From: Pseudoxanthomonas sp. YR558
GTDB lineage: Bacteria > Pseudomonadota > Gammaproteobacteria > Xanthomonadales > Xanthomonadaceae
Length of the DNA: 64,000 bases
Reading direction: 5' to 3'
NCBI RefSeq assembly: GCF_900116385.1
Contig: NZ_FPCI01000001.1
Span: 186,001 to 250,000, forward strand
Within the stretch, counting starts at the first letter, position 1. Every line of letters begins with the position of its first letter. Below, one piece after another: positions 5,109 through 19,138 of this stretch. A program made the translations under genes and the position numbers. The notes under the pieces were generated by a model that was not told the origin of the DNA, did not search any database, and saw nothing but the letters and a program-made list of their open reading frames with translations.

Positions 5109-6257
5109 TTAGCGGAGCAGGCTGAGCACGTTCTGCGGCACCTGGTTGGCCTGGGCCAGCATGGCCGTACCGGCCTGCTGCAGGATCTGGGTGCGGGTCA
5201 GTTCGGCGGTTTCCTTGGCGAAGTCCGTGTCGCGGATGCGGCTGCGCGAAGCGGCCAGGTTTTCCGAGCTGGTCTGCAGGTTGGCGACCACCGAGGTGAA
5301 GCGGTTCTGCACCGCACCCAGGTCGGCGCGGGCCGAGTTGACCGAGGTCAGCGCGGCGTCGACGATTTCCAGGGCCTTCTGCGCGCCTTCGAACGTGGTG
5401 ATGTCCAGGTCCTTGGCGAACGAAGCGGTGGCGGTGGCGGCCGCCGTCGTGGTGGCGGCGGTCAGGCCCGAGCCGGTCACCGTGCCACCGACGACCAGAT
5501 CCTTGCCGGCCTTCACCGAGTTCAGGGTCACCTGGTCGGCGGTCACCGAGGCGTACACGCCGGTCTCGCCCATCTTCGCGTTGATCGCCGTGGCCAGACC
5601 CTTGGCGATGTCGTCGCCGGTGGTGCCGGTGGTGTAGGCGACGGTGTCGATGGCCACCGAGTTGATCGTCAGGCCGGCGATGCTGCCGTTGGCGGCGGCG
5701 TCGGCGATGGCCGTGCCGGTCACGTCGGCAGCGAACTTCACGTTGCCCAGCGACTGCGAGCGGGCATCGACGACCTTGTCGATGGCGATCGCCTGGCCGG
5801 CATTGGCGCCGACCTGGAACAGCTGGCTGGTGAACGAGCCGTCCAGCAGCTTGGTGCCGTTGAAGTCGGCCTGCTTGGCGACGCGGTCGATTTCCGAGGT
5901 CAGCTGCTTGACTTCGGCGTTCAGCGCGGCGCGGTCGGACGAAGAGTTCGTCGCGTTGGCCGACTGGACCGACAGCTCACGGATGCGCTGCAGGTTGTTG
6001 CCGATTTCCGTCAGCGAACCTTCGGCGACCTGAGCCAGCGAGATGCCGTCGTTCGCATTGCGAACGGCGACGTCCAGGCCGCGGATCTGGGTGGAGAAGC
6101 GCTCGGAGATGGCCAGACCTGCGGCGTCGTCCTTGGCGCTGTTGATGCGCAGGCCGGACGACAGCCGCTGGATCGTGGTCGCCAGCGAGGCGCCGCTGGT
6201 GCTCAGATTGCGCTGGGCATTCAGCGAGATGGTGTTGGTGTTGATGACCTGTGCCAT
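5109..6257 (-). CDS. fliC: Flagellin, paralogue 2 of 4 (shortest)
   Basis: This is a 382-residue flagellin. The terminal regions match the paralogues (MAQVINTNTISLNAQ... and ...QVPQNVLSLLR); the central variable segment is about 20 residues shorter than in the others and contains a Thr/Ala-rich stretch. It begins 81 bases downstream of the first flagellin and ends 83 bases before the third, so it probably belongs to a single polycistronic transcript. A GGAGT lies upstream of the ATG. Confidence 0.95.
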   Translation of the reverse strand: MAQVINTNTISLNAQRNLSTSGASLATTIQRLSSGLRINSAKDDAAGLAISERFSTQIRGLDVAVRNANDGISLAQVAEGSLTEIGNNLQRIRELSVQSANATNSSSDRAALNAEVKQLTSEIDRVAKQADFNGTKLLDGSFTSQLFQVGANAGQAIAIDKVVDARSQSLGNVKFAADVTGTAIADAAANGSIAGLTINSVAIDTVAYTTGTTGDDIAKGLATAINAKMGETGVYASVTADQVTLNSVKAGKDLVVGGTVTGSGLTAATTTAAATATASFAKDLDITTFEGAQKALEIVDAALTSVNSARADLGAVQNRFTSVVANLQTSSENLAASRSRIRDTDFAKETAELTRTQILQQAGTAMLAQANQVPQNVLSLLR

Positions 6258-6338
6258 GAGTTCGACTCCTTAGGCGTTTTCTGCACGGGGGATGATGTTG
6301 TCCAACGATTCCCCGCCGTGCCGCCGGGGACGCTAGGT

Positions 6339-7550
6339 TCAGCCTTGCAACAAGCTCAATACGCCCTGCGGCGCCTGGTTGGCCTGGGCCAGCATGGCCG
6401 TACCGGCCTGCTGCAGGATCTGGGTGCGGGTCAGTTCGGCGGTTTCCTTGGCGAAGTCCGTGTCGCGGATGCGGCTACGCGATGCGGCCAGGTTTTCCGA
6501 GCTGGTCTGCAGGTTGGCGACCACCGAGGTGAAGCGGTTCTGGATCGCGCCCAGGTCGGCGCGCGCGCCGTTGACCGAGGTCAGTGCCTTGTCCACCACT
6601 TCCAGGGCGCGCTGGGCGCCGGCGAAGGTGGTGATGTCCAGGCCCTGGACGAAGCTGTTCGTGGTGGCGAGGTCGCCGCCGTTGGTGCTGGTTTCGGTCA
6701 GGCCGAGGTTCGCCGCCGTCGACACCGTGGCGCCGGTGACGGCGGGGCCGCCGAAGGCCAGTGCGAATTCCTGGCCACCCTTGACCGAGGTCAGGTTGAT
6801 GACACCGGCCTTGACCTCGGCGTACACGCCGGTCTCGCCCAGCTTGTTATTGATGGCAGCGGCGGCAGCCTGCGTGATCGACTGGCCGGCCTTCACGTCG
6901 AAGGCGCCGATGTTGACGGCCGTCGCGCTGCCGCCGGTCGGGGTGACCGAGATCTGCAACTGCGAGTAGGTCGTGTCGGCGGCAGCGGCGTCGACGCCCA
7001 GCGCGGTGCCGGCATAGACGTTGGCGAAGGTCACACCGCCCAGGGTCTGCGCACGGGCGTCGACGACCTTGTCGATGGCGATCGCCTGGCCGGCGTTGGC
7101 GCCGACCTGGAACAGCTGGCTGGTGAAGGTGCCGTCCAGCAGCTTGGTACCGTTGAAGTCGGCCTGCTTGGCGACGCGATCGATTTCCGAGGTCAGCTGC
7201 TTGACTTCGGCGTTCAGCGCCGCGCGGTCGGAAGCGGAGTTGCTGGCGTTGGAGGACTGCACGGCCAGTTCGCGGATGCGCTGCAGGTTGTTGCCGATCT
7301 CGGTCAGCGAGCCTTCGGCGACCTGGGCCAGCGAGATGCCGTCGTTCGCGTTGCGGACGGCGACGTCGAGGCCGCGGATCTGCGTGCTGAAGCGTTCGGA
7401 GATGGCCAGACCGGCCGCGTCGTCCTTCGCGCTGTTGATGCGCAGGCCCGACGACAAGCGCTGGATGGTGGTGGCCAGAGAGGCGCCGCTGGTGCTCAGG
7501 TTGCGCTGAGCGTTAAGCGACATCGTGTTCGTGTTGATTACCTGTGCCAT
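6339..7550 (-). CDS. fliC: Flagellin, paralogue 1 of 4 (promoter-proximal)
   Basis: This 403-residue flagellin is the first of the array and the only one directly preceded by a sigma-28 promoter. It differs slightly from the other three even in conserved ends: it has Met at residue 10 (NTNTMSLNAQ) and ends QAPQGVLSLLQG instead of QVPQNVLSLLR, so it is the most diverged copy or escaped conversion. GAGGAGACGAAC precedes the ATG. The central domain covers roughly residues 170-310. Being promoter-proximal, it may be the most highly expressed filament subunit. Confidence 0.96.
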   Translation of the reverse strand: MAQVINTNTMSLNAQRNLSTSGASLATTIQRLSSGLRINSAKDDAAGLAISERFSTQIRGLDVAVRNANDGISLAQVAEGSLTEIGNNLQRIRELAVQSSNASNSASDRAALNAEVKQLTSEIDRVAKQADFNGTKLLDGTFTSQLFQVGANAGQAIAIDKVVDARAQTLGGVTFANVYAGTALGVDAAAADTTYSQLQISVTPTGGSATAVNIGAFDVKAGQSITQAAAAAINNKLGETGVYAEVKAGVINLTSVKGGQEFALAFGGPAVTGATVSTAANLGLTETSTNGGDLATTNSFVQGLDITTFAGAQRALEVVDKALTSVNGARADLGAIQNRFTSVVANLQTSSENLAASRSRIRDTDFAKETAELTRTQILQQAGTAMLAQANQAPQGVLSLLQG

Positions 7551-7643
7551 GTTCGTCTCCTCTTATTTGGATTCACGGCGTTGAAGGGAAAAGACGCTGC
7601 CGGTTTGTTTTGTTGGGCTAGTCGTCTTCGTGTTGCGAAATGA

Positions 7644-7670
7644 ATAACGGCGCTGCCAAAAAAACCTTTA
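7644..7670 (-). promoter_or_regulatory. Sigma-28 (FliA) promoter of the flagellin array
   Basis: On the minus strand TAAAGGTT, 11 bases, then GCCGTTAT: five of eight matches at -35 and six of eight at -10 to the FliA consensus with exact spacing. The leader to the first flagellin ATG is roughly 90 bases. No comparable box was found between the flagellin genes. Confidence 0.85.
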
Positions 7671-7891
7671 GGGCAGCTGCAAAAAAATGTGTTAGGGACT
7701 CGAAACCCGTGCGGCGCAAGGGTTCGCGGGAAACGTCCGAAACGTGACATCGGCCCTAAAGATGGTCCGGGACGTGCCGTTAAGGCCGCCCCGCGGGCAC
7801 GCCAAGACACACCGGGCCGGTCACGATGCGCCGTGCGAGCGGTTTGAGCAGAAGGAGGGTGGTGTCGTGCGCCCTGAGCGCAGGTATCGGG
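7671..7891. other. Non-coding gap upstream of the flagellin promoter
   Basis: Between the flagellin sigma-28 promoter and the end of the next gene I see no supported gene, no strong hairpin and no further promoter. The frames here are short and lack ribosome sites. Confidence 0.4.
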
Positions 7892-8464
7892 CTACGGCGT
7901 CGGCGTACGCCAGGCGTCGTCCGGATTGGCGAGCAACGAGAGTCCAGGCATGCGGTACTCGCATCCGATCAACGTGCGTTGCTGCATGCCGGGATGCTCG
8001 CCGGCGTAGACCACCAGCGCATGCAGGTCATCGAGCGCGCCGGAGAGTGGCGTGTCGCGGCTGTCCGCCAGCGACTGCTCCAGGCGCGCGCTGGCCGTGT
8101 CGATGGGTGCATCGACCAACAACAGCACACGGTTGTCGGTGACGACGATCGCATCGCCTTCGTTGCCCCAGGCGTCCACGGATTCGTCGAGCCGGTAGAG
8201 ATCCATCGTCGGCGTGCCGTACTGACGCTCGGTCTGGATGAATTCGGCGGGCCGTTCGCGCCGCAGTCTGCTCAGCAAGCCGGCGATGTCGCCAGCCGAC
8301 GTCCTGCAGGTCAGGGCGTCGACCAGCGTATCCGTCGCCTGCGCGGGCGACGGCGGAGCAGGAGAGGGAGGCGCGATGACCTGCGCCTCCAGCGTCGCGC
8401 TCGCGGCCAGCAGCGCCGATGCGAGCGCGAGGGCGGCGTTCCTATTCGATCTGCGCATTGGCAT
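7892..8464 (-). CDS. Secreted hypothetical protein
   Basis: This is a protein of 190 residues, or 188 if the second ATG at 8456-8458 is used. It has a basic start and a hydrophobic stretch (ALALASALLAASATLEA) that looks like a signal peptide, followed by a Pro-rich linker and a soluble domain with two Cys that could form a disulphide (near residues 53 and 168). I do not recognise the family. The start overlaps the 3' end of the upstream TPR-like gene by 17-23 bases and has no clear ribosome site of its own, so it is probably translated by coupling. Function is unknown. Confidence 0.7.
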   Translation of the reverse strand: MPMRRSNRNAALALASALLAASATLEAQVIAPPSPAPPSPAQATDTLVDALTCRTSAGDIAGLLSRLRRERPAEFIQTERQYGTPTMDLYRLDESVDAWGNEGDAIVVTDNRVLLLVDAPIDTASARLEQSLADSRDTPLSGALDDLHALVVYAGEHPGMQQRTLIGCEYRMPGLSLLANPDDAWRTPTP

Positions 8465-9296
8465 GCGCCGCGTCCAACGCTTCCATCGCGTCGCGGGGCT
8501 TGAGTTTGCCGGCCTTCTCGTAGGCGGCGGCAGCGGCGTCTTCCTTCTTGTCCCCGTGCAGGAGCAGCAATACGTTGGCGTGCTCGACGTGCGCGATCGG
8601 GGAGTCGGGCGTCAGTTTCAGTGCGGTCTTGATGTGGGATTCTGCTTCGCTCGCCTTGGCGCCATAGGTCAGGCCGCCGATCATCGCGCCGATCTTGCCG
8701 ATGATCTCCGCGTGGTAGAGCGCCAGCGCGGTGTGCGCCTCGGCGTGCTTCGGGGCCAATTCGAGTGCGGCGTCCAGCGAGGTGCGCACCTTGCCGGCGA
8801 TGCCCTGTTTGAGCGCCTTGGCGATGCTGAGTCCCTGGCTGTAGCGGCCGAGCGCGAAGGAGTGGCGGTAGTGGCTGTTGGCGTCATCGGGCAATGCCTT
8901 GATCGCGGCCTCGGCGAGCTTGGCGCCCTGTTCGAAGCGCTTGAGTTGTTCGGCTTCGTCGTCCACCAGGTACGTGGCGTGGATGCCGATGGCTTTCACC
9001 GCGACGGACGCGCCCAGGGGGCCGAGCGCCTCACCGGCCTCGTACGCCGCCTGGAAGTCGCCGCGATGGAACGCACGCCATGCGTCCTGCAGTTGCTGGG
9101 CTAGATCGTCGGCCGTGATGCCTTTGGCAGCCTTGCCGACCGCAACGATCAAGGCTTTGGCGCGCTTCTCGTCGGGGTAGGGCTCCTGGTCACCCGCATG
9201 CAGGGCAGGCCAGGCTTTCTTGAGCGCATCGCCGGCATAGGCATAGGCCTTGGCGTCGTGCGGAAACGGGGCCCACTTCGAAGACTTCGCTGCCAT
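8442..9296 (-). CDS. Tetratricopeptide-repeat-like protein
   Basis: This is a 284-residue cytosolic protein of helix-turn-helix pairs resembling TPR repeats (for example SLDAALELAPKHAEAHTALALYHAE and a later IKTALKLTPDSPIAHVEHANVLL region). I chose the ATG at 9294-9296 because GGGAGGGAC lies 8 bases upstream; a 34-codon extension to 9398 lacks a site. No signal peptide is visible. TPR proteins act as protein-interaction scaffolds; no partner can be named. The stop lies inside the following secreted-protein gene, so the two form a coupled pair. Confidence 0.8.
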   Translation of the reverse strand: MAAKSSKWAPFPHDAKAYAYAGDALKKAWPALHAGDQEPYPDEKRAKALIVAVGKAAKGITADDLAQQLQDAWRAFHRGDFQAAYEAGEALGPLGASVAVKAIGIHATYLVDDEAEQLKRFEQGAKLAEAAIKALPDDANSHYRHSFALGRYSQGLSIAKALKQGIAGKVRTSLDAALELAPKHAEAHTALALYHAEIIGKIGAMIGGLTYGAKASEAESHIKTALKLTPDSPIAHVEHANVLLLLHGDKKEDAAAAAYEKAGKLKPRDAMEALDAAHANAQIE

Positions 9297-9461
9297 CTGT
9301 CGTCCCTCCCAGGATGTCGCGAGCATGGCCGCGAACGCCGTCCTCAGGCAACCCCTACGCAATCCGTGCGCAGAGCGGCCAATAGTGTGATTGCTCAAGC
9401 CGCCGACGGCAGCATCGCATCAAGGAAGCCGGCCACCGTGGTGCGGCACGTGGAACTGAAC

Positions 9462-9869
9462 ATGGCCACCAAGAAGAACGCCCGCAAACCCCTCGAGCCG
9501 ACCCTGCGCCACGTGTGGCTGGCAGGTCTGGGCCTGATCGTCGTGGGCCGCCGCGAAGCCCTGGCCGCGGTCGCCGATGCGACCCAGCGCTTCGATGCCG
9601 CGCGCCAGCAGGCCGCCACGTTCGCCAGCACCACGCAGCGCGATGTGCTCGATCGCCTCGCCGATGCCCGTGAGCAAGGCGAAGCCCGCGTTGGCCAGTT
9701 CAGCGCCGACGTGGAAGCGCGCCTGGAGCCGGTGCTGGTGAAGCTGGGGCTGAAGAAGAAGCCCGCGCGGAAGGCGTCGCGCAGCCGCAAGGCGGCGCCT
9801 GTGCGCGCCAAGACGGTGCGCAAGCCCGCGCCGCGCAAACCCGCGGCCCGCCGCACGCGCCGCGCCTGA
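9462..9869 (+). CDS. Phasin-family (PhaI/PhaF-like) granule-associated protein
   Basis: This is a 135-residue protein with an N-terminal phasin segment (LRHVWLAGLGLIVVGRREALAAVADATQRFDAARQQ), a coiled-coil middle, and a Lys/Arg/Ala/Pro-rich basic tail over the last 40 residues. Phasins coat storage granules, and basic tails of this type in PhaF-like proteins bind DNA and tether granules to the nucleoid. The start is ATG 9462, with GGAA just upstream. It shares its layout with the phasin at 16154-16714. A terminator follows. The granule cargo is not evident, as no PHA synthase lies in the window. Confidence 0.85.
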   Translation: MATKKNARKPLEPTLRHVWLAGLGLIVVGRREALAAVADATQRFDAARQQAATFASTTQRDVLDRLADAREQGEARVGQFSADVEARLEPVLVKLGLKKKPARKASRSRKAAPVRAKTVRKPAPRKPAARRTRRA

Positions 9870-9897
9870 GCCTGAGCCTGAGGCCAGCACGACCCTG

Positions 9898-9926
9898 ACG
9901 CCCCGGTTCACCGGGGCGTTTTCGTT
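9898..9926 (+). terminator. Rho-independent terminator of the phasin gene
   Basis: ACGCCCCGG and CCGGGGCGT form a 9-bp stem with a TTCA loop, followed by TTTCGTT. It lies 28 bases after the phasin stop and ahead of the convergent GFA gene. Confidence 0.75.
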
Positions 9927-9929
9927 CAT

Positions 9930-10337
9930 CTAGAGGTGTCGTGTGACAGTGGGCTCGGAGAACCAGTCGTTGTCGCGACCGTTGAAATAACGGATCGGCA
10001 CCTGGGCCAAGGTCTCGGGCGCCACGTCGTCCAGGCAGGCCAGATTTACCGAGACGTATCGGCCGCCGAGGACCTCCAGTTCGCCCCGGCCGAAGGATTT
10101 GATGCCGCAGTGCCGGCAGAACAGGTGCTCCGTGGCGTGGGTGCCAAAGCGGTACCGCCCTAGGTCATCCTCGCCCTGAAGCAGGCGGAACGCCTCGGGC
10201 CGCACGACCACGCCCCAGAACCGCGTCTTGGTGCAGATGGAGCAATTGCATCGGCCGCTGCCTGCGGCCAGGTCGAGGTCCGCTTCGTAGCGGATGGCGC
10301 CGCAATGGCAGCTCCCGCGGTAGGTCTGGATGGCCAT
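9930..10337 (-). CDS. GFA (glutathione-dependent formaldehyde-activating-like) zinc protein
   Basis: This 135-residue protein has the GFA/Mss4-like fold signature with seven Cys in zinc-binding pattern: C10-x-C12, C30-x-C32-x2-C35 and C74-x2-C77. The name comes from a glutathione-formaldehyde adduct enzyme, but most members of this large family have no proven substrate, so only a zinc-containing, possibly glutathione-linked role can be inferred. The gene is divergent from the WYL regulator (start codons 84 bases apart), which may control it. Confidence 0.88.
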   Translation of the reverse strand: MAIQTYRGSCHCGAIRYEADLDLAAGSGRCNCSICTKTRFWGVVVRPEAFRLLQGEDDLGRYRFGTHATEHLFCRHCGIKSFGRGELEVLGGRYVSVNLACLDDVAPETLAQVPIRYFNGRDNDWFSEPTVTRHL

Positions 10338-10409
10338 GGACGGGTGCTCCCGGTGGATGAGTCGCCAGTGTGGCTGCCATCGAGGACAGAATCAGTCCGC
10401 AATAGGCGC

Positions 10410-10415
10410 CATACT
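10410..10415 (+). promoter_or_regulatory. Candidate -10 box giving a leaderless WYL-regulator mRNA
   Basis: CATACT ends 6 bases before the ATG at 10422. Transcription starting about 7 bases downstream would begin at or next to the start codon, and no Shine-Dalgarno sequence is present. The -35 region is not recognisable. Confidence 0.35.
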
Positions 10416-10421
10416 GCGCCC

Positions 10422-11375
10422 ATGCTCAGCACCTCCAACCGCCTGCTCCGCCTGTTGTCGCTGCTGCAGTCGCGCCGTCATTGGACAGGCGCGGAACTGA
10501 GCCAGCGGCTGGACATCGATCGCCGTACGTTGCGCCGCGATGTGGAGCGGCTGCGCGAACTCGGCTACCCGATCGACGCTTCCCCGGGCTTGGGCGGCGG
10601 ATATCGACTGGGATCCGGAAGCGCGATGCCTCCCGTCCTGCTGGAAGACGACGAGGCGGTCGCCGTAGCCGTGGCGCTGCGGACCGCCGCCGCCAGCGTG
10701 GGGCGGATGGAAGACACCTCGTTGCGGCTGCTGTCGAAGCTGGATCAGTGGCTGCCGGCGCGCCTGCGCAAGCGCGCCAGCGCGCTCTACTCGGTGACGC
10801 TCTCGCTGGCGGGCGGTGCGCCGACCTCGGATGTGGACGCGCTGTTGCGTATCGCCGGCGCCTGTCGGGACGGCTTCAGGCTGCGCATGCAGTACCGCGA
10901 CCGCAGCCAGAAGGCGAGTGAACGGCTGATCGAACCCTTGCGACTCGTGCACACCGGCAGTCGGTGGTATCTGGTGGCCTGGGACCTCAAGCGCGAGGAC
11001 TGGCGGACGTTCCGGGTCGATCGTGTGCAGGCGCTGCACGACACCGGCATGCAGTTCCCGCCGCGCCCGTTCCCGGGCGATGTAGTCGACTATGTCGCCA
11101 AGTCGATCACCCAGCCGTTCACCCGCTTCCAGGTGCGGTTGCGCCTGCCGGGATCGATCGAAGAGCAGGCCACGCGCGTACCGCCCTGGTGCGGCATCCT
11201 CGAGGCCGGCGACGCGCACCACTGCGTGTTGGAGCTGGGCGCGGAGTCAGTGGAAGCCTTGCTCGCGCTGATGGCTCTGGTGGGGCCTGACTTCGAAATA
11301 CTCGATGATCGCGGCCTGCTGCCGCAGCTGCGCGCGGCGTCGACCCGTCTGGGCGACGTACTGGCGGCCGCGTAG
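10422..11375 (+). CDS. YafY/DeoR-type WYL-domain transcriptional regulator
   Basis: This is a 317-residue regulator: a winged HTH at residues 1-60 (LSQRLDIDRRTLRRDVERLRELGYPI) and a WYL ligand-sensing domain with the name motif SRWYLVAWDL near residue 180, followed by a WCX-type C-terminal extension. Many WYL proteins sense nucleic acids or small ligands; the effector is unknown here. The ATG at 10422 starts homology at once; the longer in-frame extension overlaps the divergent GFA gene. The likely target is the divergent GFA gene and itself. Confidence 0.9.
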   Translation: MLSTSNRLLRLLSLLQSRRHWTGAELSQRLDIDRRTLRRDVERLRELGYPIDASPGLGGGYRLGSGSAMPPVLLEDDEAVAVAVALRTAAASVGRMEDTSLRLLSKLDQWLPARLRKRASALYSVTLSLAGGAPTSDVDALLRIAGACRDGFRLRMQYRDRSQKASERLIEPLRLVHTGSRWYLVAWDLKREDWRTFRVDRVQALHDTGMQFPPRPFPGDVVDYVAKSITQPFTRFQVRLRLPGSIEEQATRVPPWCGILEAGDAHHCVLELGAESVEALLALMALVGPDFEILDDRGLLPQLRAASTRLGDVLAAA

Positions 11376-11382
11376 GCGCGCT

Positions 11383-12009
11383 TCAGTCGGTGTAGGCCTG
11401 CGTCAGCGTGTTGAGATGCACGCGCTCGGCGTCGCGCAGGAACGGCGCCACCAGCATCATCACCTGGACGATGCCCTGGCGGATCGCGGCCTGTTCGTCC
11501 TTTTCGCCACGGGTGGCTGCGTAGTTCAACCAGAACGTGGAAATGACCAGCACGTTGGTCGCCGTGGCCGCGAGCTCGGCGGCCGAGGCGCGCATCACGC
11601 CGGCATGGCCCAGCCCGCGCATCACCGCCAGCGCACTGTCGTCGGCGCGCTTGAGGATGCGAGCGAAGCGCAGGCGCAGGCGACGGTTGCGGCTCAGGAT
11701 CTCGACCAGGTCGCGGTACAGGAAGCGGTAATCCCAGATGCACTCGAACACCAGGTGCAGCTGCAGCCAGATGTCTTCCAGCCCGGGCAAGCGATCAGTG
11801 GGCGGCGTCAGGGCGGCATCCATGCGCTCTTCGTAGCGGGCGAAGAGCTGCTCGATGATGTCGTCCTTGTTGCGGAAGTGGTAGTACAGGTTGCCGGGGC
11901 TGATCTCCAGCTCGTCCGCGATGTGATTGGTCGTGACGTGAGGCTCGCCCTGCGTGTTGAACATCGCCAGGGCGGCTTCGAGGATGCGCTGGCGTGTATC
12001 GCGCGCCAC
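11383..12009 (-). CDS. TetR/AcrR-family regulator coupled to the acyl-CoA-binding protein gene
   Basis: This is a 208-residue protein with an N-terminal TetR HTH (TRQRILEAALAMFN... TTNHIADELEISPGNLYYHFRNKDDII) and a helical C-terminal ligand domain. The GTG start immediately follows the stop of the acyl-CoA-binding protein gene (TAAGTG), which indicates translational coupling. The divergent gene 150 bases away encodes a fatty acyl-CoA reductase. Since FadR/FabR-like members of this fold sense acyl-CoAs, control of the reductase and ACBP by long-chain acyl-CoA is a reasonable inference, not shown by sequence. Confidence 0.92.
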   Translation of the reverse strand: MARDTRQRILEAALAMFNTQGEPHVTTNHIADELEISPGNLYYHFRNKDDIIEQLFARYEERMDAALTPPTDRLPGLEDIWLQLHLVFECIWDYRFLYRDLVEILSRNRRLRLRFARILKRADDSALAVMRGLGHAGVMRASAAELAATATNVLVISTFWLNYAATRGEKDEQAAIRQGIVQVMMLVAPFLRDAERVHLNTLTQAYTD

Positions 12010-12267
12010 TTACGCGGTGAGTTTCTTCACCAGGTCCACGTACTTCTTCTGGGCGTCTTCGGGCGCGGTGCCCTTGAGTTTGGCCCAGGCTTCGTACTTG
12101 GCGGTGCCGACGAAGTCGAAGAAACCGGGCTTGTCGCCCTTGACGTCGCCTTCTGAGCCTTGCTTGTACAAGCCATAAAGTCGAAGCAGGGTGTCGTTGT
12201 CCGGGCGCTCGGACAGCGTCTGGATGTCCTTGGATGCCTGGTCGAACGCGGTCTTCAGATCTGCCAT
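12010..12267 (-). CDS. Acyl-CoA-binding protein (ACBP)
   Basis: This is an 85-residue stand-alone ACBP with the hallmark LLRLYGLYKQGSEGD segment and KYEAWAKLKG motif. ACBPs bind medium to very long acyl-CoA in the cytosol and buffer or deliver it to enzymes. They are universal in eukaryotes but patchy in bacteria. The ATG at 12265-12267 has GGGAGGG about 7 bases upstream. The gene is divergent from a fatty acyl-CoA reductase and directly followed by a TetR gene, suggesting that it supplies or protects the reductase substrate. Confidence 0.95.
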   Translation of the reverse strand: MADLKTAFDQASKDIQTLSERPDNDTLLRLYGLYKQGSEGDVKGDKPGFFDFVGTAKYEAWAKLKGTAPEDAQKKYVDLVKKLTA

Positions 12268-12417
12268 GGATGATCCCTCCCAGTGATCGCGGCCATCACA
12301 CCACGGGTAGTGCAGGCGGTCAATCGGCGGCGGGATTGTCGAACCGCAACGGCTCTGGCAACGTAGGCTGCAGGGCGGTCGGAGGGGCTTGCCCACACAA
12401 TCGAGGGTTGGGTCGTC

Positions 12418-14406
12418 ATGAGCTATTTCGTCACGGGCGCCACGGGATTCATTGGCCGTTATCTGGTCGGCAACCTCCTCAAGCGCAGCGGGACGGTCTA
12501 CGTGCTGGTCCGGAAGGACTCGCAGAAGAAGTTCGACGCCATCGCCAAGAAGGCCGGCTGGGACATGAAGCGCGTGTCCGTGGTGCACGGCGACATGACC
12601 AAGCCGCGATGCGGGCTGACCCCCGCCCAGCTACGCACGCTGACCGGCAAGGTGAAACATTTCTTTCATCTCGCGGCCATCTACGACCTGACGGCCACCC
12701 GCGAATCGCAGCAGGCGGCCAACATCGACGGCACCCAGCACGCGCTGGACCTTGCCGCCGCGCTGAAAGCGGGCTGCTTCCACCACACCAGTTCCATCGC
12801 GGCCGCAGGCTTGTACCCCGGCATCTTCCGCGAGGACATGTTCGAGGAAGCCGAGGGCCTGGACGATCCCTACCTGCGAACCAAGCATGAGTCCGAAGGC
12901 CTCGTGCGCAACGAGAAGCGCATCAAGTGGCGCATCTACCGTCCCGGCATGGTGGTCGGCCACTCCAAGACGGGCGAGATCGATAAGATCGATGGCCCGT
13001 ACTACTTCTTCACCTTGATCAAGAAGCTGCGCGAGCTGCTGCCGCAATGGGTGCCGGTGCTCGGCATCGAAGGGGGGCGCATCAACATCGTGCCGGTGGA
13101 TTTCGTCGCCGACGCGATGGACCACATTGCGCACAAGCCGAAGCTGGATGGCCATACCTTCCATCTGACCGACCCGGAGCCGATGCGCGTCGGCGAAGTG
13201 CTCAACACGTTCTGCCGTGCCGGCCATGCGCCGGAGATGACCATGCGCATCGACGCACGCATGTTCGCCTTCGTGCCCGGCAGCATCCGCATGGCGGTGG
13301 GCAACCTGCCACCGGTGCGACGTTTCATCGGCATGCTCCTGCGCGACTTCAAGATCCCCAAGGAAGTGCTGAAGTTCATCACCTATCCGACGCGCTTCGA
13401 CAGCCGCGAAACGGAGCGGGCGCTGAAAGGTAGCGGCATCGCCGTGCCGCGCCTGGACGACTACGCATGGCGCCTGTGGGACTACTGGGAGCGCCATCTG
13501 GATCCGGACCTGTTCGTCGACCGATCGTTGAAGGGCAAGGTGCGCAACAAGGTGGTCGTCATCACCGGCGGTTCGTCCGGCATCGGCCTGTCCACTGCGC
13601 AGCGCGTCGCGGAAGCGGGCGCCACCACGATCATCGTGGCGCGCGGCGAGGAAGAGCTTTTCAAGGCTCGCGACGACATGAAGAAGGCGGGCGGCAAGGT
13701 GTTCGCCTATACCGCCGACCTTTCCGATATGGCGGACTGCGATCGGTTGGTGAAGACCGTGCTGGACGAACACGGACACGTGGACATCCTGATCAACAAT
13801 GCGGGCCGCTCGATCCGTCGCTCCATCGAGGCCAGCTACGATCGCTTCCACGATTTCGAGCGCACGATGCAGCTGAATTACTTCGGCAGTATCCGCCTGA
13901 TCATGGGCTTCCTGCCGAAGATGACCGAACGCCGGAAGGGCCACATCATCAACATCAGCTCGATCGGCGTGCTGGCCAATTCGCCGCGCTTCTCTGCGTA
14001 TGTGGCATCGAAGGCGGCCCTGGATGCCTTCAGTCGCTGCGCGCAGGGCGAGCTGTCGGGCAAGGGGATCAGCTTCACCACGATCAACATGCCGCTGGTG
14101 AAGACGCCGATGATCGCGCCCACCAAGATGTACGACAGCGTGCCCACGCTGTCCCCGGACGAGGCGGCCGACCTGCTGGTCAAGGCCATCATCGAGAAGC
14201 CCAGCCGCATCGCCACGCGCTTGGGTATTTTCGCCGCGCTGGTGAATGCCGTCGCACCGAAGGCTTACGAAGTGGTGATGAACACCGCCTTCGAACTGTT
14301 TCCCGATTCGGCCGCCGCCAAGGGCGACCGCAAGGCGCTCAAGGAATCGGCGCCGAGCCAGGAGCAGATCGCATTCGCCGCACTCATGCGGGGCGTGCAC
14401 TGGTAG
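12418..14406 (+). CDS. Two-domain fatty acyl-CoA reductase (SDR-SDR, Marinobacter type)
   Basis: This is a 662-residue fusion of two short-chain-dehydrogenase domains. The N-terminal extended domain has GATGFIGR at residues 7-14 and the Y152-x3-K156 pair. The C-terminal classical SDR has TGGSSGIG at 383-390, NNAG at 460-463 and Y528-x3-K532. Length, domain order and long identical stretches (GIFREDMFEEAE, PYLRTKHESE, EGGRINIVPVDF-like, NMPLVKTPMIAPTK, and the end FAALMRGVHW) closely match what I recall of the Marinobacter enzyme that reduces long-chain fatty acyl-CoA to fatty alcohol with NADPH in wax-ester synthesis. The ATG has a weak GGGTTGGGTC upstream. It is divergent from ACBP-tetR. The alcohol product and its fate here are inference. 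Confidence 0.88.
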   Translation: MSYFVTGATGFIGRYLVGNLLKRSGTVYVLVRKDSQKKFDAIAKKAGWDMKRVSVVHGDMTKPRCGLTPAQLRTLTGKVKHFFHLAAIYDLTATRESQQAANIDGTQHALDLAAALKAGCFHHTSSIAAAGLYPGIFREDMFEEAEGLDDPYLRTKHESEGLVRNEKRIKWRIYRPGMVVGHSKTGEIDKIDGPYYFFTLIKKLRELLPQWVPVLGIEGGRINIVPVDFVADAMDHIAHKPKLDGHTFHLTDPEPMRVGEVLNTFCRAGHAPEMTMRIDARMFAFVPGSIRMAVGNLPPVRRFIGMLLRDFKIPKEVLKFITYPTRFDSRETERALKGSGIAVPRLDDYAWRLWDYWERHLDPDLFVDRSLKGKVRNKVVVITGGSSGIGLSTAQRVAEAGATTIIVARGEEELFKARDDMKKAGGKVFAYTADLSDMADCDRLVKTVLDEHGHVDILINNAGRSIRRSIEASYDRFHDFERTMQLNYFGSIRLIMGFLPKMTERRKGHIINISSIGVLANSPRFSAYVASKAALDAFSRCAQGELSGKGISFTTINMPLVKTPMIAPTKMYDSVPTLSPDEAADLLVKAIIEKPSRIATRLGIFAALVNAVAPKAYEVVMNTAFELFPDSAAAKGDRKALKESAPSQEQIAFAALMRGVHW

Positions 14407-14440: not shown

Positions 14441-14863
14441 TCAGGTGTCCTGTGGCTCAGACCACCGCAACGGCACCGCCTGCAGGTTGCGCATATGCAT
14501 CGCGAGCGGTTCGATCCGCGACCAGATGAAGTCGCGCAAGTCTGCGTCTTCCACCGTCTCGGTCATGGCGCCATGGAAACACGCCAGCCAGCCGCTGGCC
14601 TCGGCCATGCCGATCCGGAAAGGCAAATGGCGGGCGCGCAGCATCGGCGCACCGTGCTTCTGGGTGAACAACGGCGGACCGCCTAGCCAGCCGCTGAGGA
14701 ACTCGAACAGTTTCTGCTCGCTGCCATCGAGCGAGTCCGGATGTTGCGCGCGTACCGCGGCGGCTTCCGGCAAGGTATCCATCAGCGCGTACATGCGCTG
14801 CGTCATCCGGCGCAGGCCGACTTCGCCGCCGATGCGATCGTAGGGAGTTGGGGCGTCAGTCAT
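14441..14863 (-). CDS. Group 2 truncated haemoglobin
   Basis: This is a 140-residue globin with the start region PYDRIGGEVGLRRMTQRMYALMDT and the group 2 (GlbO-like) haem region from KLFEFLSGWLGGPPLF to the HLPFRIGMAEASGWLACFH segment, which carries a His and the conserved Trp. Such proteins bind oxygen or NO, or reduce ligands, in the cytosol; the role here is not known. It is convergent with the acyl-CoA reductase gene (34 bases between stops). No ribosome site is clear before the ATG. Confidence 0.92.
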   Translation of the reverse strand: MTDAPTPYDRIGGEVGLRRMTQRMYALMDTLPEAAAVRAQHPDSLDGSEQKLFEFLSGWLGGPPLFTQKHGAPMLRARHLPFRIGMAEASGWLACFHGAMTETVEDADLRDFIWSRIEPLAMHMRNLQAVPLRWSEPQDT

Positions 14864-16153: not shown

Positions 16154-16714
16154 TTATGGTGCAGCCTTCTTGCGCGATGCACGCTTGGCGGGCGTTTTCT
16201 TCGCTGCCGGTGCCGGTTTTTTGGCGGCCGCGGCCTTGCGGGCCTTCGTCGGCTTCGCGACCGGAGCGCCGCCCAGCTTGCGCAGTTCGGCATTGAGCGC
16301 GTCGACGCGATCGATCAGGGCGGAGAGGTCTTCGCGGCTCGGCACTTCGAGACGGCGCAGTGCGCGATGCACGCGTTCTTCGAAAACCTTCTCAAGACGA
16401 TCCCACGTGTCCGAAGCGCGCTCGCGAGCCTGGCCCACGGTGGTCTCTACCGCATCGCGCATCGCTTGCGCCTTGCCGCCGGCGGTCTTGCGCGTGATCT
16501 GCTCCAGCGAGAGGCCTTCTTTCACGAGGGTCTCGAACAGCTTGGTGCCTTCGGCCTGCGCGCGCCCGAAAGCCCCCACGCCGGCGAGCCAGACCTGTTG
16601 CGCGGATTCGCCGAGGCGCTTGGAGAGCTGTTCGGCCTGGGCCTGCAGCTGTTCGTTGTTGGAGGAAGGAGCGGAAGCGGTCTTCTTGCGTGCGGATTTC
16701 TTCAACGTGGCCAT
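16154..16714 (-). CDS. Phasin-family granule-associated protein with basic tail
   Basis: This is a 186-residue protein with a Lys-rich N-terminus, a phasin core (QQVWLAGVGAFGRAQAEGTKLFETLVKEG), an amphipathic helix region with heptads and a C-terminal Ala/Lys/Pro tail from about residue 145 (repeated AKKP/AAKK units) like histone H1 or PhaF tails. Phasins bind the surface of storage granules, and the tail probably binds DNA and helps granule segregation. It is the second phasin in the window and is followed by a 13-bp stem terminator. It may coat PHA made elsewhere in the genome or another neutral lipid. Confidence 0.9.
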   Translation of the reverse strand: MATLKKSARKKTASAPSSNNEQLQAQAEQLSKRLGESAQQVWLAGVGAFGRAQAEGTKLFETLVKEGLSLEQITRKTAGGKAQAMRDAVETTVGQARERASDTWDRLEKVFEERVHRALRRLEVPSREDLSALIDRVDALNAELRKLGGAPVAKPTKARKAAAAKKPAPAAKKTPAKRASRKKAAP

Positions 16715-16810: not shown

Positions 16811-18055
16811 TCACGGGCGACGGGCGGCCCGGCGGCTGGAAACCAGTTGGTCCACGTCGTCCAGGGCGCGACGCAGGCGGGCCGTGGTTTCGGTCATGCG
16901 TGGGGTGACGTCTAGGCCGTCGAGGATCGAGCGGTGGCGGTCGTTGACGATGTCGTCGTTGTACCGGATGCCATGCGCCGCCAACATCGGCTTGAGCACG
17001 GCGGCGCGCTTGCGCAGGTCGGCCAGGGTGTTGCGGTAGGCGAGTTGGCAGACGCGGTGGCGCGAAGAGAAGCTGAAGAGATTGGTGAAGAAGAGCTCGC
17101 TGTCGTCCGAGTTGGGCTCGAACACCAACTGGTCGATGTCCGGATACCGGTGCGGGTACTTCTCCATGCCGATCTGCATGCGCGACTGCAGCAGGGTGCG
17201 CAGGGTCTGCGACAGGACGGCGGGCAATCCGCCGCTCGCCAGTCCGACCTGTTCGGCTTCGTCCGCCTGCGGGGCTGCCTGGTTGGCATCGAACGGCACC
17301 AGCGGATTGATGCCGATCATCAGGTCGATATCGCGGTCCAGTACGGTGCTGGCGTGCATCGTGCGGCGCAGCGCGCCGTCGAGGAAATGCCGCCCACCGA
17401 TTTCCACCGGCGGGTACAGACCGGGCAGGGCGGAACTGGCCTGCACGGCGCGCGAGATCGGGATGTCGTCCCAGCCTTGCTCGCCGAAGCGCACCGCTTC
17501 GCCGCTGTCCAGGTCCACCGCCACCACGAACAGGTCCGCGTCCAGCGTGCGGAAATCGTTGCTGCGGCCACGCCGGCTGAAGATGTCGCGCAGGAAACGC
17601 TCGACTTCCTCGTTGTCGAAGATGCCCGTCGGCACCAGGCCGCCGAAACGCAGGAACAGGTCGGACCAGCGCGTGGCCCGGCGCGGGTTTCGGACCAGGC
17701 GCGACAGCCAATCGGCGTACAGCCCGGGCAGGCTCGCGGCGCGCCGCAGGTATTCGCTGACGTTGGGGCGCAGGAAGGTCTCGGGCCGGAATTCGGCGTC
17801 GTCGCTGGTGCCGGTGATGAAGATGCGGCACATCTCGGCCGTACCCATCCGGTTGGCCAGGCCGGCAGCGAGGAAGGCGCCGGAGCTGACGCCCACGTAG
17901 CAGTCCATCCGGGTCAGGTCCAGGCCGTCGAGCGCTTCGTCGAGGGCACGCAGCGCGCCGAGTTCGTACATGCCGCCAATGGGGCCGCCGCCGGCGATGG
18001 CCAGCCCGATCTTGCCGTTGTGGCCCCGTTTCCGCGCGCTGTGGATCGAAAGCAT
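16811..18055 (-). CDS. Patatin-like phospholipase
   Basis: This is a 414-residue patatin-fold lipid acyl hydrolase. It has the oxyanion loop GGGPIGG (residues 22-28), nucleophile elbow G55-V-S57-S-G59 and the dyad motif D226-G-A228; the catalytic residues are all present. Ser57 and Asp226 are the predicted dyad. No signal peptide or TM is evident, so a cytosolic or membrane-peripheral role on phospholipid or granule lipid is likely. It lies between the phasin and the FFLEELY/PHA_gran_rgn genes, all of which lean towards lipid or storage-granule handling. Confidence 0.92.
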   Translation of the reverse strand: MLSIHSARKRGHNGKIGLAIAGGGPIGGMYELGALRALDEALDGLDLTRMDCYVGVSSGAFLAAGLANRMGTAEMCRIFITGTSDDAEFRPETFLRPNVSEYLRRAASLPGLYADWLSRLVRNPRRATRWSDLFLRFGGLVPTGIFDNEEVERFLRDIFSRRGRSNDFRTLDADLFVVAVDLDSGEAVRFGEQGWDDIPISRAVQASSALPGLYPPVEIGGRHFLDGALRRTMHASTVLDRDIDLMIGINPLVPFDANQAAPQADEAEQVGLASGGLPAVLSQTLRTLLQSRMQIGMEKYPHRYPDIDQLVFEPNSDDSELFFTNLFSFSSRHRVCQLAYRNTLADLRKRAAVLKPMLAAHGIRYNDDIVNDRHRSILDGLDVTPRMTETTARLRRALDDVDQLVSSRRAARRP

Positions 18056-18142: not shown

Positions 18143-18859
18143 ATGGCCCGAGGAAATCCGCTGATCGAACGTGTGGGCAGGCGGCTAGCCTGGCATCAAG
18201 CGCTGCATGACCCGGACGTCGAGCCGCGGAACCGCCTGCGGTGGCTGCCCGAGCTGCGGCGCTGGCAGGCCGCACGGCTGGAAACTAGCTTCACCCATTT
18301 CCTGAACGATCCGAAGCGCCGCGCGGCGGCGATGTTCTTCCTGACCGATGTCTACGGCGACCATGACTTCAGCCGGCGCGATGCTAACGTCGCCAAAGTC
18401 ATGCCGATGATGCAGCGGCTGTTGCCGGGGGCCGTGCTGGGGACCGTCGCCCATGGCATCGAGCTGGGGGCGCTGACCCATGCCCTCGACATGCGGATGG
18501 CCGAGGCGTTGCATCGCTTGGCGCCCAGTCGCCGCAAGCTGGATGCGGACCTCTACGGCCGCGCATACCGCGAGGTCGGCCTGCCGCGCCTGCGTGGGCA
18601 CCAGATCGACCTGATCGCGGAAGTCGGTGTGGGCCTGGCGCAGGCCGTGAAGACGCCGGGCGTGGCCACCCTGCTCAAACTGTCGCGGGGACCGGCCAAG
18701 GCCACGGGCCTGGGCGAGCTGCAGGGATTCCTGGAGCGGGGGTTCGCGGCCTTCGCCGCGCTGGGCGACGGCAAGGCGTTCGTGCGCGACATCGAGAAGG
18801 CGGAGCGGACCATCTCGCGCCGCCTGTTCGCGGCCGATCCCGATCCGTTCCGCGATTGA
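18143..18859 (+). CDS. FFLEELY-motif family protein
   Basis: This is a 238-residue helical soluble protein. It carries a variant of the FFLEELY signature, F65-F-L-T-D-V-Y71-G followed by DHDFSRRDANVAKVMPMMQRLLP, which is characteristic of an uncharacterised family common in Xanthomonadaceae. The biochemical role is unknown. I use ATG 18143; ATG 18134 in frame would add three residues, and neither has a clear ribosome site. It is divergent from the patatin gene and ends 3 bases before the convergent PHA_gran_rgn gene. Confidence 0.8.
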   Translation: MARGNPLIERVGRRLAWHQALHDPDVEPRNRLRWLPELRRWQAARLETSFTHFLNDPKRRAAAMFFLTDVYGDHDFSRRDANVAKVMPMMQRLLPGAVLGTVAHGIELGALTHALDMRMAEALHRLAPSRRKLDADLYGRAYREVGLPRLRGHQIDLIAEVGVGLAQAVKTPGVATLLKLSRGPAKATGLGELQGFLERGFAAFAALGDGKAFVRDIEKAERTISRRLFAADPDPFRD

Positions 18860-18862
18860 TCC

Positions 18863-19138
18863 TCAGTCGAACTTGTCGCTCAGCACCCGGCGGATCTCCG
18901 CTTCGATCGGCCCCTTCATGGCCGACAGCAGGAACCCCAGATTTGCGGTGACCCGCAGTTTGTCAGCCAGCAGCGCGATCTTGCCTTCCACGCCGGAGCG
19001 GCTGAAGTTCAGCGTATCGCCGTCCCACCCGTAATCCATGTCGAAGCGTTCGGCCAGCTTCTTGGCGACGTCCTCGACGGCCTTGCGGGCCTGCTTCGGG
19101 GACTTGGAATGCGCGTGCTGGATATCGATGCTGGCCAT
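18863..19138 (-). CDS. PHA_gran_rgn family protein (polyhydroxyalkanoic acid system protein)
   Basis: This is a 91-residue protein matching the PHA_gran_rgn family (MASIDIQHAHSKSPKQARK at the start, a DYGWDGDTLNFSRSGVEG core, and an ending EIRRVLSDKFD). Members are associated by name and context with PHA granules; the biochemical role is not known. ATG 19136-19138 has GGGAG 8 bases upstream, which decides against a 25-codon extension. It supports the idea that this 9-19 kb region serves granule or lipid storage. Confidence 0.85.
   Translation of the reverse strand: MASIDIQHAHSKSPKQARKAVEDVAKKLAERFDMDYGWDGDTLNFSRSGVEGKIALLADKLRVTANLGFLLSAMKGPIEAEIRRVLSDKFD

Follow-up and report, generated by a model that had tools for sequence, protein, structure and literature searches.

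The locus studied here raises the question of what a Marinobacter-like fatty acyl-CoA reductase (FAR) does opposite an acyl-CoA-binding protein (ACBP) and a TetR regulator in Pseudoxanthomonas sp. YR558. Wax-ester storage has been studied mostly in Marinobacter, Acinetobacter, and actinobacteria, and the initial annotation read the three genes as a compact acyl-CoA-to-alcohol unit. They belong to a real, recurring module of known chemistry that is wider than that annotation saw. In our judgment, this is likely a split module for wax-ester synthesis and lipid-body formation, with the activities and TetR control set out below.

Layout of the divergent locus and class of the reductase

The window, that is, the whole stretch of 64,000 nucleotides analyzed, lies on contig C1 of a 3.79-Mb genome assembled in 4 contigs. 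Read directly, the genes for TetR (11383 to 12009, minus strand; 208 residues) and ACBP (12010 to 12267, minus strand; 85 residues) diverge from the FAR gene (12418 to 14406, plus strand; 662 residues). ACBP starts with ATG at 12267, with GGGAGG upstream, and ends with TAA at 12012 to 12010; the GTG start codon of TetR abuts this stop, and the TAAGTG junction by which the two genes had been described as coupled is therefore right. A divergent intergenic region of 150 bp (12268 to 12417) separates ACBP from FAR. The enzyme facing the pair across this gap had been described as a 662-residue protein with two SDR domains, with which the coordinates and the Pfam matches (PF07993, 169 bits; PF00106, 185 bits) agree; the interval originally assigned to the unit, 12010 to 14406, takes in ACBP and FAR and leaves out the TetR gene.

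The likeness of FAR to the Marinobacter enzyme holds. It matches the NF005539/PRK07201 profile over its full length (residues 1 to 662; 1011.1 bits against a cutoff of 549), and it is 63 to 64% identical to five Marinobacter proteins, Maqu_2507 not being among them. By its sequence, FAR is assigned to the PRK07201 (AcrB/Maqu_2507) class of fatty acyl-CoA reductases, and Maqu_2507 (AcrB) of Marinobacter aquaeolei VT8 shares with it the profile, the two SDR domains, and a length of about 660 residues; the Marinobacter genome likewise holds a WS/DGAT. Residues T6, G7, G10, G13, Y152, and K156, as well as T383, G384, G388, G390, Y528, and K532, are invariant, and we take these positions to be the Gly-rich and Y-x3-K motifs of SDR enzymes, which both domains keep in 26 of 26 sequences. 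It is the N-terminal domain that hits the thioester-reductase model, and among the matches listed to solved structures (60 chains), the best one extends over a single domain. In passages of PMC3522743, Acr1 of Acinetobacter (described there as yielding aldehyde only) and FCR2 align with part of the FAR class, and FCR2 is set opposite the C-terminal portion of FCR1. The 20 best homologues are 92 to 98% identical to FAR, and those with organism names are from Pseudoxanthomonas; a quick tree of 81 sequences broadly tracks taxonomy and places the window beside another Pseudoxanthomonas. The PRK07201 class is uncommon: in a sample of 274 genomes from the taxonomic class, 10 exceeded the family cutoff.

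ACBP (PF00887, 100.7 bits; cutoff, 28.3) is the single match to its family in the genome. Tyr, Lys, Lys, and Tyr residues, presumably the ligand positions, are visible in its alignment to 2fdq. The conservation of neighbors in relatives, proposed earlier as a check, is found: ACBP is divergent from FAR and within 1 kb of it in 75 of the 92 family genomes carrying the two genes, so the arrangement is not due to chance. In the other 17, the two genes are on the same contig at distances of 2.3 kb to 272 kb (10 genomes) or on different contigs (7 genomes, including G041, in which a second FAR fragment does adjoin ACBP). Both ACBP and TetR were present in 30 of 30 family loci, a nonrandom set comprising the 30 best FAR matches. 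In genus g7, FAR and ACBP are separated by about 9 kb in four genomes and by 10.6 kb in a fifth; by eye, the frames of the G006 insert (L193, G006:C1:2903000-2920000, about 5600 to 14300) look like histidine utilization genes.

The acyltransferase partner and the recurring gene neighborhood

A search for a wax ester synthase/diacylglycerol acyltransferase (WS/DGAT) had also been suggested, and the genome does contain one. It lies outside the FAR cluster, about 246 kb from FAR (about G000:C1:446162-447619; L192), has 486 residues, scores 415.2 bits with TIGR02946 (cutoff, 309.95), and carries the sequence HHSYADG, which conforms to the HHxxxDG motif. FAR and WS/DGAT also go together across the family, and this bears out the wax-ester link of the initial annotation: among 149 genomes, 93 have both, 54 have neither, and 2 are discordant (raw counts, kinship ignored). 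Since weaker SDR matches occur in every genome, we set our own cut for the presence of FAR (E value of 1.3e-119 or better), which yielded 88 full-length and 6 partial or broken genes. The discordant genomes are G142, which is 71% complete and is the sole one of the 94 to have FAR without WS/DGAT, and G114, which is 85% complete and 4% contaminated and has WS/DGAT only. Of the 54 genera, 35 have FAR and WS/DGAT in at least one genome and 19 have neither. Four genera are mixed for FAR; WS/DGAT switches along with it in g3, g19, and g28 and does not follow it in g54, to which G114 belongs.

These counts agree with the 94% of acrB genes found in WS/DGAT genomes according to the accessible text of PMC11948995, which describes acrB as almost exclusive to such genomes and defines AcrB by the same PRK07201 profile; judging from the references given there, this AcrB is of the Maqu_2507 type. 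The enzyme class behind the acyl-CoA-to-alcohol unit stands, and the unit as drawn stops one step short, because only a single one of the 94 FAR genomes, itself incomplete, lacks WS/DGAT. In the pathway that we propose, FAR would reduce long-chain acyl-CoA with NADPH to a fatty alcohol, ACBP would buffer or deliver acyl-CoA, and the distant WS/DGAT would esterify the alcohol with another acyl-CoA to form a wax ester; against this, WS/DGAT here may yield triacylglycerol instead.

The neighborhood of FAR is broader than three genes. On the far side of FAR, the window contains genes for a phasin (16154 to 16714, minus strand; 186 residues; PF05597, 154.3 bits against a cutoff of 28.8), a patatin-like lipase (16811 to 18055, minus strand; 414 residues; 98.2 bits against a cutoff of 27.7), an FFLEELY-motif family protein (18143 to 18859, plus strand; NF047641, 221.6 bits, scanned from 18173), and a PHA_gran_rgn protein (18863 to 19138, minus strand; 91 residues; PF09650, 105.5 bits; TIGR02610, 112.7 bits). 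The patatin-phasin gene order of the window is repeated in relatives. A globin gene (14441 to 14863, minus strand; PF01152, 129.7 bits) and an Mrr-like gene separate FAR from the phasin in the window, and a globin also adjoins FAR in three loci of the same genus (L003, L006, and L007). On the other side lies a second, weak phasin-like gene (9462 to 9869, plus strand), which scored 20.6 bits with TIGR01837, below the cutoff of 94.7 (scanned from 9483), and had no Pfam match in the family search; at the same place, several relatives (e.g., L101, L102, L104, L106, and L132) have a stronger phasin match. Its product has a Lys/Arg-rich, strongly basic tail, and we take it to resemble a PHA-granule protein with a histone-like tail fused to it.

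Neighbors were counted with profiles built from 1 to 31 sequences (a single window sequence each for PHA_gran_rgn, FFLEELY, and FAR), with thresholds chosen after the first profile scan had been seen, in the best 80 of 365 confirmed FAR candidates; the DNA scanned often ends at contig ends. Phasin was found near FAR in 50 of these 80 loci, TetR in 47, ACBP in 36, patatin in 35, PHA_gran_rgn in 18, WS/DGAT in 18, and FFLEELY in 17. In the 47 of these loci with full 10-kb flanks, the corresponding counts were 29, 29, 23, 21, 13, 11, and 10. None of the neighbor genes exceeded the threshold in the controls, 20 stretches of 20 kb each that were taken from eleven FAR-positive family genomes, while the test loci came from gamma- and betaproteobacteria and one alphaproteobacterium. 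In Lysobacterales, the order is often TetR-ACBP, FAR, phasin-patatin, FFLEELY, PHA_gran_rgn. In several betaproteobacteria, it is ACBP, WS, TetR-patatin-phasin, FAR, and others of that group are without ACBP and WS within the DNA scanned. The window holds all six recurring neighbors (TetR, ACBP, phasin, patatin, PHA_gran_rgn, and FFLEELY) and not WS/DGAT; in another genome of the family (L196, G036), WS, TetR-ACBP, FAR, phasin-patatin, FFLEELY, and PHA_gran_rgn lie within about 11 kb. The neighbors seen by the initial annotation are thus conserved, and the unit is not complete with three genes, since one or two phasins, patatin, PHA_gran_rgn, FFLEELY, and, in many relatives, WS/DGAT are added to it. 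In the likely module, the phasin or phasins, perhaps with PHA_gran_rgn, would coat the inclusion that forms, and the patatin-like lipase would act on its lipid.

Two further arrangements were observed. In L195 (G022:C1:960000-974000, genus g22), phasin, patatin, and FFLEELY adjoin WS/DGAT instead of FAR, which again ties them to wax-ester genes. In L200 (G081:C3:44000-53000), FAR, TetR, patatin, and FFLEELY are each split over several frames in a genome rated 100% complete; that so many adjacent genes are split together suggests assembly indels rather than decay.

Unlike the window, nine Marinobacter loci had none of the neighbors, including TetR, ACBP, phasin, and patatin, in the profile scan, and the same scan found none of them in several other loci, mostly from marine gammaproteobacteria; the neighbors are therefore not required for wax-ester synthesis everywhere. 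Published work (parts of PMC11948995 and PMC10351704) has already reported that FAR accompanies WS/DGAT, as well as some of the clustering. Passages of PMC10351704 describe beta- and gammaproteobacterial scaffolds from sediment metagenomes on which ACBP, a MAQU_2507-like SDR, and either a phasin or a PHA system protein occur close to WS/DGAT; in those passages, WS/DGAT is inside the cluster, whereas it is outside in our genome, no TetR or patatin is named, and the phasin is not tied to wax-ester bodies. As far as the accessible text of PMC11948995 goes, that survey does not cover the acrB neighborhood or its regulator, and the word "phasin" is not in the main text. Judged by their titles and abstract openings, none of the open-license papers listed describes the module in this family.

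TetR and the intergenic region

The regulator combines a TetR_N domain (48 bits) with PF13972 (145 bits), and its closest solved sequences are 3nnr and 3rh2. A plasmid search with it gave 31 records, all below 60% identity. Identity as a PsrA ortholog was rejected, as it scored 25.8 bits with the PsrA profile NF053516 (cutoff, 300). The PsrA-type regulator Smlt2053 of Lysobacteraceae resembles it in having a TetR fold and a link to fatty-acid metabolism and, in the portion of PMC10304680 concerned, belongs to a different operon.

We propose that TetR, acting on the shared 150-bp region, would repress FAR as well as the ACBP operon to which it belongs and that a fatty-acid or acyl-CoA ligand would free it and so relieve repression. 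The best hint that FAR is a target is its placement: in 44 of the 47 TetR-bearing loci among the best 80 of 365, TetR sits upstream of FAR and is read from the other strand, and as far as we searched, this recurring arrangement is new. The operon partners of TetR are lineage specific, ACBP in Lysobacterales and a patatin/phasin run in betaproteobacteria with TetR at its far end, so that the phasin, between TetR and FAR, is the immediate divergent neighbor of FAR there.

The alternative is that TetR does not control FAR and is a local repressor of ACBP or of other genes on its own strand or responds to an unrelated ligand. We regard this as somewhat unlikely, because the upstream, opposite-strand position is kept in 44 of 47 loci despite the changing partners; in its favor are the betaproteobacterial loci, where TetR is not next to FAR, the three loci with TetR on the strand of FAR (L109, L123, and L133), and the intergenic region itself, where the palindrome-like candidate overlaps the leftward promoter and not the rightward one. 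This region was examined in an alignment of 47 intergenic regions, kept from 51 loci tried by a spacing filter of 50 to 600 bp; the start codons are 119 to 243 bp apart in 46 of them, the exception (523 bp) being in an assembly with Ns. Promoter-like elements are seen in close relatives, namely, GGTCAAT (TTGACC leftward) and, rightward, ATTGTC with a CTCTGGCAACGTAG-like element, and they fade in more distant Lysobacterales. A GCATSACASCAYGC-like element sits over the presumed leftward -10 and is kept in close relatives, with 0 to 2 mismatches to the palindrome in most of them (5 in L026 and 3 in L097) and 3 to 7 in more distant Lysobacterales. It is a candidate TetR operator.

A TetR operator shared with WS/DGAT was also considered and rejected. 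We searched 31 regions upstream of WS/DGAT genes, 10 of which belong to divergent paralogues 25 to 29% identical to our WS/DGAT, for three consensus elements on either strand; the elements matched 1, 0, and 2 of these regions against backgrounds of about 0.9, 0.8, and 3.5 hits. Common control of WS/DGAT is therefore unsupported.

The ACBP-TetR pair appears to have another use, too, since L198 (G021:C33, g21) keeps it without FAR or WS/DGAT. ACBP is kept without either gene in six family genomes (genera g21 and g19), and a phasin and PHA_gran_rgn remain near ACBP in one such locus, L197 (G019:C21, g19).

Phasin, PHA synthase, and a proposed inclusion

Every one of the 94 FAR-positive genomes of the family has a strong phasin match (PF05597, E value under 1e-30, our own cut) at some position, compared with 30 of the 50 with PHA synthase and without FAR and 0 of the 5 with neither (kinship ignored). 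PHA synthase exceeds the cutoff in 133 of the 149 genomes. No match to it was found by PF07167 or TIGR01836 in 10 FAR genomes of two genera (g10 and g42), and all 10 have a strong phasin (few genera, kinship ignored). The locus was read in 9 of them, and the phasin is near FAR in each; its median dN/dS values of 0.17 and 0.31 in the two genera, from the same 9 of 10 genomes, point to purifying selection. As far as we searched, it is new that a phasin is present in all 94 FAR genomes, the 10 without a PHA synthase match among them.

We suggest tentatively, as a possibility rather than a probability, that the phasin, PHA_gran_rgn, FFLEELY, and patatin by FAR, most of which carry PHA-granule annotations, are the apparatus of a wax-ester body switched by a TetR that senses the acyl-CoA pool buffered by ACBP. 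In this view, the phasin would form the coat of inclusions of wax, or of wax and PHA, and the patatin would mobilize them. A PHA phasin placed in another host can coat triacylglycerol bodies (Hanisch 2006, as cited in a passage of PMC6273058). The TetR exceptions noted above lowered our estimate for this apparatus and raised that for a TetR that does not control FAR.

The phasin, PHA_gran_rgn, and patatin could instead serve PHA, with the region being a PHA-granule region and FAR and ACBP being chance or historical neighbors that handle acyl-CoA overflow. The names of the families (PF05597 and PF09650) suggest as much, as do the frequency of PHA synthase in the family and the strong phasin in most genomes that have PHA synthase and lack FAR. 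A class III PHA synthase is also encoded in this genome itself (TIGR01836, its sole PHA synthase match), and the phasin here may accordingly act in PHA storage; the argument that phasins must serve wax for want of a PHA synthase was rejected for this genome, where PF07167 had missed the synthase that TIGR01836 found, and its one remaining basis is the set of 10 genomes from g10 and g42. No PHA synthase was encountered in the FAR locus, however, the synthase being on contig C2 and the window on C1. In addition, phasin accompanies FAR in every FAR genome, PHA synthase or not, while it is absent from those with neither, and a phasin adjoins FAR in betaproteobacteria as well. We therefore consider the granule explanation improbable. 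It is more improbable still that FAR supplies alcohol or aldehyde for a nonstorage use (secreted or membrane lipid) while WS/DGAT makes mainly triacylglycerol: the published link between the two genes is statistical, WS/DGAT gives wax ester and/or triacylglycerol depending on the strain (as far as PMC11948995 was accessible), and ACBP persists without FAR, as does TetR in one locus, but the near-perfect joint presence in the family, the 94% association in the same source, and the clustering in 18 of the best 80 of 365 loci speak against it.

For the wax-ester module proposed here, the parts worth testing are the pairing of TetR with FAR and the phasin pattern. If the lipid-body interpretation is true, the phasin would be a dedicated lipid-body protein in the genera free of PHA synthase, a protein family taken to indicate PHA storage would, in some genomes, be a marker of neutral-lipid bodies as well, and the coat of bacterial wax-ester bodies would become testable through the localization of one phasin. 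If the module itself is right, it would have a named candidate regulator in TetR, and 35 of the 54 sampled genera of the family would hold species capable of making wax esters.
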